From positions 248,001 through 312,000 of the forward strand of contig NZ_JACIFV010000004.1 in NCBI RefSeq assembly GCF_014197535.1: a DNA stretch of 64,000 bases, written 5' to 3'. The notes under the pieces are model-generated. The model was not told where the DNA came from and made no database searches. It was given only the letters and a program-made list of their open reading frames with translations. The translations under genes and the position numbers were made by a program. Below are positions 56,088-59,580 of this stretch, piece after piece (positions within the stretch are counted from its first letter, which is position 1; each line of letters begins with the position of its first letter). Origin of the DNA: Rhizobium aethiopicum. Lineage in GTDB: Bacteria > Pseudomonadota > Alphaproteobacteria > Rhizobiales > Rhizobiaceae.

Positions 56088-57551
56088 ATGTCTCCGGAAG
56101 CCGCATCGCCTCAACAGGCGATCCGCCAGTTTCTCGCAGCGCTTCGAAGTCCTGCGCGTATTCTCGTCGCGATCTCGGGCGGCAGCGATTCCACCGGCCT
56201 GCTTCTCCTCCTCGATGAAGCCATAAAGGCCGCGCCCCATCCTGGAATTTCCCTTTGTGCCGCGACCATCGACCACGCGTTGCGCGCCGGCTCCGCAGAC
56301 GAGGCGCGAGAGGTCGCAGCTCTCTGTGCATCCCTCGGCATTCACCATATGATCGCTAGATGGCAGGGCGAAAAGCCGAAAACCGGCATCATGGCCGCGG
56401 CCCGTGAGGCCCGTTACGGCCTTCTGGCCGAGGCAGCCGAAGCGCTCGACGCCAATCTCATCGTCACCGGTCATACGCTGGACGACCAGCGCGAAACGCT
56501 TGCAATGCGTGGCATGCGAACGGAGCAGGTTTCGACCGGTATTGCCGATGCCGTGCTTTTCGACCGGCGATTCTGGATTTTGCGCCCATTTCTATTTTCC
56601 ACACGCCCGGATATCCGCGCTTTCCTGCGGGCGGGGGGCGTGCGGTGGATCGACGATCCGAGCAATGAGGATATCAAATACGAGCGTGTGCGGATGCGCC
56701 GGCAGCTATCTGCCGATCCTGCGGCGGAGACGGATATTCGCGCAGCCTGGGAAGAGCGGCTCGCTCTGTCGTCTCGAGCCGCCGAATGGCTGGATCCTCA
56801 TTTCCAGCTTCACGGCGGCGTGCTTGGGCAGGTGATGCCCGAGGGATTGCGGCAGGACCGTGCGGTCCTCGACTATACGCTCGGCCGTCTGACGGCGGTG
56901 TTCGGCGGGCAGCCGTTCGTGCCGGGCAGCGTGCAAATGGACCGTATTCTCGCATTCGCCGCCGGCAGCGGGTCGGGACGGATGACCGCCGGCAGAGTGG
57001 TGTTCGATCTCAGGCGCGACGGGCTTTATCTGGCACGGGAAAACCGGGGGATGGTGCCGCTGGTATTGCGGCCGGGGGAGGCTGGGGTTTGGGACGGGAG
57101 ATTTCAGGTGCGCAATGGGTCAGCGATCTCGATTGCAATCGAATCCGCCGCTACCCACTCTCCCTCATTCCTGTGCTTGTCACAGGAATCCAGCGCGCCC
57201 AAGTCCTTGGGCGCGGAAGACTCTCTTCCGCCGCACATGGAGTCATTCACCGCGCGGACGCGCGGTGGCTGGATTCCTGTGACAAGCACAGGAATGAGGG
57301 AGCGTCATTTTGGGCACCTGCCGAAGGCGGCATGGAAACGCGCAATCGCGTCGGCGCCTGCCTTATCCTCAGATGGAGCCTATTTATCTCCAGAATCCGC
57401 TTCAATGGTTGAACTGGTGCCCTATTTCGCACCCTTCGACCGCTTTTTGACACGATTTGATTTCATCTTTGCCGACAGGCTATCGGCGGTTTTCGCGAAG
57501 GCGCCCTATGCGGGACCGCCTTTAAGAAGTATTGACGGAAAAACCATCTGA
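56088..57551 (+). CDS. tilS: tRNA(Ile)-lysidine synthase TilS carrying an in-frame palindromic repeat
   Basis: 487 residues. The PP-loop SGGSDS is at residues 30-35 (ILVAISGGSDSTGLLLL), with VTGHTLDDQRETLAMR and RWIDDPSNEDIKYERVRMRR further on, all diagnostic of TilS. It converts cytidine-34 of the tRNA-Ile2 anticodon to lysidine, an essential step for decoding AUA. Residues about 358-406 are encoded by a 143-base palindromic element (57161-57303) that reads through without a stop, adding about 48 residues beyond the core domains. TilS proteins of relatives lack this stretch as far as I recall. The catalytic half is untouched. Confidence 0.92.
   Translation: MSPEAASPQQAIRQFLAALRSPARILVAISGGSDSTGLLLLLDEAIKAAPHPGISLCAATIDHALRAGSADEAREVAALCASLGIHHMIARWQGEKPKTGIMAAAREARYGLLAEAAEALDANLIVTGHTLDDQRETLAMRGMRTEQVSTGIADAVLFDRRFWILRPFLFSTRPDIRAFLRAGGVRWIDDPSNEDIKYERVRMRRQLSADPAAETDIRAAWEERLALSSRAAEWLDPHFQLHGGVLGQVMPEGLRQDRAVLDYTLGRLTAVFGGQPFVPGSVQMDRILAFAAGSGSGRMTAGRVVFDLRRDGLYLARENRGMVPLVLRPGEAGVWDGRFQVRNGSAISIAIESAATHSPSFLCLSQESSAPKSLGAEDSLPPHMESFTARTRGGWIPVTSTGMRERHFGHLPKAAWKRAIASAPALSSDGAYLSPESASMVELVPYFAPFDRFLTRFDFIFADRLSAVFAKAPYAGPPLRSIDGKTI
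57161..57303. repeat. Composite palindromic element inside tilS
   Basis: Perfect 35-bp terminal inverted repeats (57161-57195 and 57269-57303) begin CTCCCTCATTCCTGTGCTTG on the left. Inside are two more perfect hairpins, GCGCCCAAG-TC-CTTGGGCGC (57196-57215) and ACCGCGCG-GA-CGCGCGGT (57250-57267). The element is open in the tilS frame. It has the character of a mobile rhizobial intergenic palindrome that has landed in a coding region. Confidence 0.88.
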
Positions 57552-57593: not shown

Positions 57594-57648
57594 TAGAACC
57601 TAATAAGACGGTCGCCATGAGGCGGCTGTTGCAGTGCTGGGGAGTTCA

Positions 57649-59580
57649 ATGAACCCTAACTTACGTAATTTCGCATTGTGGGCGATCATCGCGCTTCTGC
57701 TGATCGCCCTTTTCAGCATGTTTCAGACGGCGCCGGCGCAGACGGGCTCCCGCGATATCCCTTATTCGCAGTTTCTGCGTGAGGTTGATGCGGGTCGTGT
57801 GAAGGAAGTCGTGGTCACGGGCAACCGTGTCTCCGGAAGCTATGTTGAAAATGGCTCCACCTTCCAGACCTATTCGCCTGTCATCGACGACAGCCTGCTC
57901 GATCGCCTGCAGCAGAAGAATGTGCTGGTTTCCGCCCGTCCAGAAACGGATGGTTCTTCGGGTTTTTTGAGCTATCTCGGCACGCTGTTGCCGATGCTTC
58001 TCATTCTCGGCGTCTGGCTGTTTTTCATGCGGCAGATGCAGGGCGGCTCCCGCGGCGCGATGGGTTTCGGCAAGTCCAAGGCCAAGCTGCTGACGGAAGC
58101 GCATGGCCGCGTGACCTTTGAAGACGTCGCGGGCGTCGACGAGGCCAAGCAGGATCTCGAGGAAATCGTCGAATTCCTGCGTGATCCGCAGAAGTTCCAG
58201 CGTCTCGGCGGCAAGATCCCGCGCGGTGTGCTACTGGTCGGCCCTCCGGGCACCGGTAAGACGCTGCTCGCCCGCTCGGTCGCCGGCGAAGCCAACGTGC
58301 CCTTCTTCACCATTTCCGGTTCCGACTTCGTCGAAATGTTCGTCGGTGTCGGTGCAAGCCGTGTGCGCGATATGTTCGAGCAGGCGAAGAAGAATGCGCC
58401 CTGCATCATCTTCATCGACGAAATCGATGCCGTCGGCCGCCATCGCGGCGCCGGTCTCGGCGGCGGCAATGACGAACGCGAGCAGACGCTGAACCAGTTG
58501 CTGGTCGAAATGGATGGCTTCGAGGCGAATGAGGGCGTGATCCTGATCGCCGCCACCAACCGCCCTGACGTTCTCGATCCCGCATTGCTGCGTCCCGGCC
58601 GTTTCGACCGGCAGGTCGTGGTGCCGAACCCCGATATCGTCGGCCGTGAGCGCATCCTCAAGGTGCATGCCCGCAACGTTCCGCTGGCCCCGAACGTCGA
58701 TCTCAAGGTTCTCGCCCGCGGCACGCCCGGGTTCTCCGGCGCCGATCTGATGAACCTCGTCAACGAAGCCGCTCTCATGGCTGCCCGCCGCAACAAGCGC
58801 GTCGTCACCATGCAGGAGTTCGAGGACGCCAAGGACAAGATCATGATGGGCGCCGAGCGCCGTTCCTCGGCAATGACCGAAGCGGAGAAGAAGCTCACCG
58901 CCTATCACGAGGCCGGCCACGCCATCACCGCGCTCAACGTCGCCGTTGCCGATCCGCTGCACAAGGCGACGATCATTCCGCGCGGCCGTGCACTCGGCAT
59001 GGTCATGCAGCTTCCCGAGGGCGACCGCTACTCGATGAGCTACAAGTGGATGGTTTCACGCCTCTGCATCATGATGGGCGGCCGCGTCGCCGAAGAACTT
59101 ACCTTCGGCAAGGAGAACATCACATCGGGTGCCTCCTCGGACATCGAGCAGGCCACCAAGCTTGCCCGCGCCATGGTGACGCAATGGGGCTTCTCCGACC
59201 AGCTTGGTCAGGTCGCCTATGGCGAGAATCAGCAGGAAGTCTTCCTCGGCCACTCGGTTTCGCAGTCGAAGAATGTTTCGGAGGCGACCGCGCAGAAGAT
59301 CGACAACGAAGTGCGCCGCCTGATCGACGAAGCCTACACGCAGGCCCGAACGATCCTGACGGAAAAGCACGACGAATTCGTCGCCCTCGCCGAAGGCCTG
59401 CTCGAATACGAGACCTTGACCGGTGAGGAGATCAAGGCCCTGATCCGCGGCGAGAAGCCTTCCCGCGATCTCGGCGACGATTCGCCGCCGAGCCGTGGAT
59501 CGGCCGTTCCGAAGGCCGGCGTGCGGCCTGCCACCAAGGGTGATGAGCCCGAAGCCGGTCTCGAACCGCAGCCGCATTGA
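57649..59580 (+). CDS. ftsH: ATP-dependent zinc metalloprotease FtsH
   Basis: 643 residues from [18 protein letters not shown], with GGGGAG in front; a start 15 bases earlier is less likely. Two membrane helices (about 8-26 and 110-132) flank a periplasmic domain. The AAA domain has Walker A GPPGTGKT at residues 198-205, and the zinc site HEAGH begins at residue 420. The second region of homology and C-terminal coiled region are complete. It degrades misfolded membrane proteins and selected regulators. Confidence 0.97.

Follow-up and report, generated by a model that had tools for sequence, protein, structure and literature searches.

We think it likely that a palindromic repeat of the Rhizobiaceae has inserted in frame in TilS, that it is tolerated there as a disordered loop, and that two alleles of the insertion have been exchanged between species. 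A sequence-only reading of the window (the whole 64,000-nucleotide stretch of DNA that was analyzed) had recognized the palindrome in tilS. It had also proposed an alignment of Rhizobium TilS proteins, a genome-wide search for the element, and a structure prediction for the insert. The palindrome is confirmed, and the interpretation given in that reading is partly supported by the data below. It had not anticipated that the insertion is common to dozens of species, that it occurs in two classes of orientation and frame, and that it appears to be exchanged as a cassette. In-frame palindromic insertions are already known in Rickettsia, and tilS is a clear case in Rhizobium. With many species sequenced, insertion, decay, putative in-place inversion, and putative exchange can be traced in this one gene.

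A composite palindrome lies in frame within tilS

The open reading frame (ORF) that hosts the element matched TIGR02432 at 148 bits (cutoff, 93.6) and PF01171 at 141 bits, both above their cutoffs, and its PDB relatives are 1ni5, 3a2k, and 1wy5. The sequence-only reading placed a 143-bp composite palindrome at 57161-57303. The size was correct, but the coordinates were one base too far to the right: read directly from the sequence, the element spans 57160-57302 (Table 1). Its left arm is CTCCCTCATTCCTGTGCTTGTCACAGGAATCCAGC, and the right arm is the exact reverse complement. The two arms are perfect over 35 bp each, and 37 of 38 bases pair when the ends are included (57157-57194 with 57268-57305). 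Between the arms are two perfect 8-bp hairpins, which had been described correctly together with the 35-bp terminal inverted repeats, plus a small third hairpin. The 27-nt arm pattern occurs in the window at the two arms alone, with 0 matches expected from 100 shuffles. The computed RNA fold of the element has an energy of -114.8 kcal/mol (z = -14.5). A chance origin of the element is excluded.

Translated in the tilS frame, the element is stop-free and reads HSPSFLCLSQES...GGWIPVTSTGMRE, about 48 residues, just as had been claimed. Because 143 is not a multiple of 3, the net insertion in tilS includes one or two extra bases or has lost some. We were unable to delimit a target-site duplication around the tilS element.

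Table 1. Positions in the window of the element, its parts, and neighboring features
Feature	Position	Strand	Basis
Host gene tilS, encoding tRNA(Ile)-lysidine synthetase (487 aa)	56088..57551	+	TIGR02432, PF01171, PDB relatives
Palindromic element, 143 bp, orientation A, in frame, about 48 residues	57160..57302	+	Arms, shuffles, fold, genomic copies
Left 35-bp arm, SFLCLSQESS frame	57160..57194	+	Sequence
Right 35-bp arm, GGWIPVTSTGMRE frame; reverse complement of the left arm without mismatch	57268..57302	+	Sequence
Inner hairpin 1, GCGCCCAA-GTCC-TTGGGCGC	57195..57214	+	Retained in nearly all genomic copies
Small hairpin GGAAGA-CTC-TCTTCC, variable center, peculiar to the tilS copy	57215..57229	+	Center varies among genomic copies
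Inner hairpin 2, CACCGCGC-GGAC-GCGCGGTG	57248..57267	+	One covarying pair: 8 genomic copies with G-C, 5 with C-G
Candidate exchangeable linker cassette (left-flank haplotype plus element)	57100..57320	+	About 50 to 60% mismatch between allele classes; adjoining sequence of the same pairs far less different
ftsH, downstream gene, 3' reference in the tree test	57634..59580	+	ORF

The element belongs to a dispersed repeat family of the Rhizobiaceae

The 6.49-Mb genome holds 19 near-full-length copies, including the one in tilS, plus several fragments. The 18 further copies show 82 to 91% identity. The arm palindrome matched the genome 41 times (22 forward and 19 reverse), versus 0 for a control pattern. 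Copies that could be excised cleanly measured 137 to 158 bp, had a variable central stretch, and were of any length modulo 3. The consensus of 13 copies has one outer stem and two inner hairpins, and one inner-hairpin pair covaries across the copies (Table 1). An Rfam search returned just a chance-level match to a plant microRNA, far below the gathering score. Plasmid records contained 1,361 places in 189 records (Rhizobium, Sinorhizobium, and a few relatives), and family-wide sampling gave matches in 29 of the 109 genera sampled, some of them to the arms only. All matches seen in the Rhizobiaceae genomes and plasmids scanned fall within the family. The insert peptide had no match in 10 genomes from other families of the order.

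At one site upstream of ispH, the aligned genomes contained the full-length element (three), no element (seven), or a solo arm (one). Therefore, copies of the element come and go. There was no clear target-site duplication at this site. As expected of a MITE, the element has terminal inverted repeats, has no gene of its own, occupies dispersed nonhomologous sites, and is polymorphic for presence and absence. The solo arm palindrome (L221, genome G067) stands where relatives keep the whole element and looks like a deletion of the core between the arms. Single-arm remnants are also found in the tilS genes of L116-L118.

The sequence-only reading remarked that such elements are normally intergenic, and that this one lies in a conserved enzyme. 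Indeed, the other copies examined look intergenic, whereas the tilS copy does not, and tilS genes without the element exist in other clades. Among the copies in this genome, only that in tilS was found within a recognizable gene. We scanned nine long ORFs that overlap element copies, and in no case did a Pfam domain extend over the element; one of the nine has a domain (di-haem oxidoreductase), with the element upstream of it. In all, the long open frames examined around copies in relatives lacked a Pfam domain spanning the element, and we rejected them as other in-frame host genes. In a spread sample of 60 plasmid records, no gene was listed under the best match in the 47 annotated ones, for which the gene table is incomplete.

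Two allele classes occupy the TilS linker

We found tilS in 148 of 148 genomes of the genus, and all of the best matches listed were open. In a large Rhizobium clade, most tilS genes carry the element or in-frame remnants of it. The insertion is thus shared by dozens of species and is not strain specific. The 63 rows of this clade comprised 18 A1, 21 B2, and 1 A2 alleles, 19 remnants, and 4 sites scored as empty (although L108 could be a remnant); all are open. In class A1, the element is in orientation A, with the left arm read as SFLCLSQE and the right arm as GGWIPVTSTGMRE. Class B2 has orientation B and reads SLIPVLVTGIQPPR...DLGALDSCDEHRNEGG. Class A2 has orientation A with frame-2 arms. 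Hence, A1 and B2 are in opposite orientations and in different arm frames in the same linker.

Outside the large clade, Rhizobium linkers are empty or hold further copies (L099/L101, L112, L114, L116-L118, L120, L121, L123, L125, and L132), which may be separate insertions or transfers. In L121, L123, L125, and L132, which belong to another Rhizobium clade, the element lies amid extra low-complexity linker that is missing from their close relatives L122, L124, L126, and L130, whose sites are empty. The tilS gene of genome G002 (L133, G002:C1:3348534-3350590) gives two separate matches, to residues 1-184 and to residues 179-487, that are not in the same frame; either this presumably essential gene is frameshifted or the assembly is wrong.

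Allele class follows the left flank and not the rest of tilS

Along tilS, the Fst between classes was near 0 and no more than that of random labels, except at 57048-57347 (0.16, 0.47, 0.68, and 0.14). When close species of different class were compared, mismatches jumped at about 57100 and dropped back near 57310-57325. In the pair L062/L072, for example, mismatches number 2 over the 160 sites before 57100, 29 over the 59 sites of the flank, and 71 over the 117 sites of the insert.

We then compared class with trees from either side of the element. On the 5' tree (961 nt, 51 species; 27 of one class versus 24 of the other, both being common), class changes 19 times (19 to 20 in bootstrap trees), and at least 15 changes are forced by supported branches; the mean for shuffled labels is 17.4. 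A 5' tree in which class A was held together was rejected (p-AU = 1.8e-98). On the 3' tree, built from the 3' part of tilS plus ftsH, class changes 16 times. On neither tree does class fit better than shuffled labels do. On a tree of the 51-nt left flank alone, with the insert excluded, class changes once, with 99/99 support. The retention index of class is 0.21, and those of ordinary two-state sites are 0.57 to 0.64 in 5' tilS (computed on the tree built from that same 5' part), 0.60 in 3' tilS, and 0.46 at the start of ftsH.

On these sequence comparisons, the simplest reading is that two insertion alleles, with one origin each in the clade, have since been exchanged at least 15 times as a cassette of about 200 bp. 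Because each species is represented by one genome, exchange between species is indistinguishable from the random sorting of an old polymorphism that recombination meanwhile separated from its surroundings. We suggest that a loop in the C-terminal domain of TilS received an in-frame insertion of a nonautonomous palindromic repeat, MITE-like or RIME-like. The inserted segment would be translated as a disordered loop. In this scenario, each allele would have arisen once in the clade and would then have moved between species via recombination, in short tracts that measure around 200 bp or slightly longer.

Alternatively, the TilS linker could be an insertion hotspot, with each species gaining its own copy in either orientation by recurrent transposition. 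This would explain why the element occurs in both orientations and with different frames at almost one position, and would account for the copies in the linker of other Rhizobium clades (L099/L101, L114, L121, L123, L125, and L132). However, each class in the large clade comes with one flank haplotype only, and the variable center of the element is alike between species in tilS but unlike among genomic copies. The single origin of the left flank leads us to reject fifteen or more independent insertions in the clade, which needs at least two. Recurrent transposition is thus largely refuted within the clade, and we regard it as quite improbable overall.

The two A2 alleles, L074 and L132, have a reversed core with both arms in the frame-2 reading, and the flanks of L074 are B2-like. 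These two alleles suggest that the core can be inverted in place while the arms stay in their frames, possibly by recombination between the inverted arms, which would leave the frame unbroken. In-place inversion was rejected as a switch between A1 and B2, as the two classes read their arms in different frames and have different left flanks. We also rejected the idea that breaks made by SbcCD drive the exchange: the genome gave no SbcC match, although at the limited sensitivity of that search this is weak evidence only. A lack of SbcC might help long palindromes persist; the SbcC model matches only weakly in relatives too.

The insert is predicted to be disordered and is probably tolerated

The insert lies at about residues 358-406 of TilS, and the catalytic domain ends near residue 207. 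In the AlphaFold model, residues 356-408 have a pLDDT under 50 and form a loop between a strand (349-353) and a helix (413-421). The insert and the C terminus are the least confident parts of this model, which is shallow (17 sequences; mean pLDDT, 65), so that the low confidence of the insert may partly reflect few informative rows. The top matches in a fold search were TilS structures covering about residues 5-318, and none covered the insert.

Across 20 pairs, which are not independent, the insert had a pN/pS of 0.86, compared with 0.24 for the core. The pS values were 0.070 and 0.225, respectively; the low value of the insert indicates that constraint or conversion at the DNA level is also acting, and pN/pS is therefore a rough guide. 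The low silent change may come from structure, from arm-to-arm correction, or from recent shared ancestry of the cassette. These substitution patterns suggest that the amino acid sequence of the insert is nearly free to change. Because the insert is predicted to be disordered and drifts almost neutrally, our best reading is that it is tolerated rather than useful. This fits the earlier suggestion that it may be tolerated because it lies beyond the catalytic half. The reading frame must nonetheless be preserved, as TilS is presumably essential and its activity depends in part on its C-terminal domains (PMC12514573).

It is also conceivable that the loop acquired a function in TilS, such as a contact with tRNA, and that selection keeps both classes. 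Both are common and lack phylogenetic signal, the cassette is more homoplasic than ordinary sites by retention index, and C-terminal TilS domains matter for activity (PMC12514573). However, we consider a functional loop unlikely given the pN/pS and predicted disorder of the insert, the many partial deletions that preserve the frame alone, and the empty sites in relatives. Similarly doubtful is a broader proposal, in which the linker would be a balanced exchangeable cassette, and selection or conversion promoted by the palindrome would have maintained two repeat-derived loop alleles of opposite orientation in dozens of Rhizobium species. If this were true, a transposable repeat would have given a tRNA-modifying enzyme a functional polymorphism of long standing. 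With its perfect association with the 51-nt flank and its lack of linkage to the remainder of tilS, the two-allele pattern makes the choice between tolerated and selected loops testable.

A third possibility is that the hairpin acts as DNA or RNA, in mRNA stability or as a chromosomal element, and that its coding is incidental. The very stable predicted fold, the low synonymous change in the insert, the compensatory inner-hairpin pair across genomic copies, and the extra segments on both arms in L059, L076, and L089 would all agree with such a role. Yet arm-to-arm correction or recent insertion can explain the agreement of the arms with no need for function, and several tilS alleles lack one arm or most of the element. 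We judge such a role quite improbable. The extra segments of L059, L076, and L089 match each other on the two arms, whereas other tilS alleles have one on a single arm only, which suggests arm-to-arm correction.

Comparison with known palindromic repeats

Like the bacterial MITEs ERIC, NEMIS/Correia, and RUP, the Rhizobium element is short, highly structured, and dispersed, with inverted ends and no coding gene of its own. It differs in that no TA ends or target duplication were identified for it. REP sequences also occur inside ORFs, tRNA modification genes among them, and in some cases related species have them at about one site, as in recB of two Xanthomonas species (PMC3733652). As palindromic repeats in coding genes, they resemble the tilS element. 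However, REPs measure 20 to 40 bp and are tagged at one end with GTAG or CGTC, the GTAG type being linked to RAYT transposases (Di Nocera et al. 2013, PMC3733652), whereas the tilS element measures 143 bp and has neither tag at its CTCCC...GGGAG ends.

The sequence-only reading likened the element to the Rickettsia palindromic elements (RPEs), and by analogy this holds for the effect. As far as the available accounts go, RPEs are palindromic repeats of about 100 to 150 bp that lie in frame in conserved protein genes and are tolerated, and a gmk product carrying an RPE is active (PMC2229807; PMC10969869). The Rhizobium element is a palindrome of comparable size, with 19 near-full-length genomic copies, and it is inserted in frame in a single conserved gene, tilS. 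RPEs are found in many different genes in those accounts, whereas a clear in-frame copy of the Rhizobium element was found in tilS alone. The orientation-frame dimorphism with putative cassette exchange seen in Rhizobium tilS is not described for RPEs in the same accounts. We therefore suggest that the Rhizobium element works like an RPE, and do not claim that it is one.

The Rhizobium-specific intergenic mosaic elements RIME1 and RIME2, reportedly introduced by Osteras et al. in 1995, are said to be about 108 to 109 bp long, to consist of two large palindromes, to occur in several copies, and to be restricted to the Rhizobiaceae. Measured against this description, the tilS element is likewise a mosaic of palindromes in the same bacteria, but it is 143 bp long and intragenic. 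We looked for related copies at 36 chvI loci of Rhizobiaceae, which do not include the type-strain copy, and found none; the chvI-chvG intergenic region is presumably the type-copy locus of RIME1. A related copy of 119 bp is present on pSymB of S. meliloti 1021.
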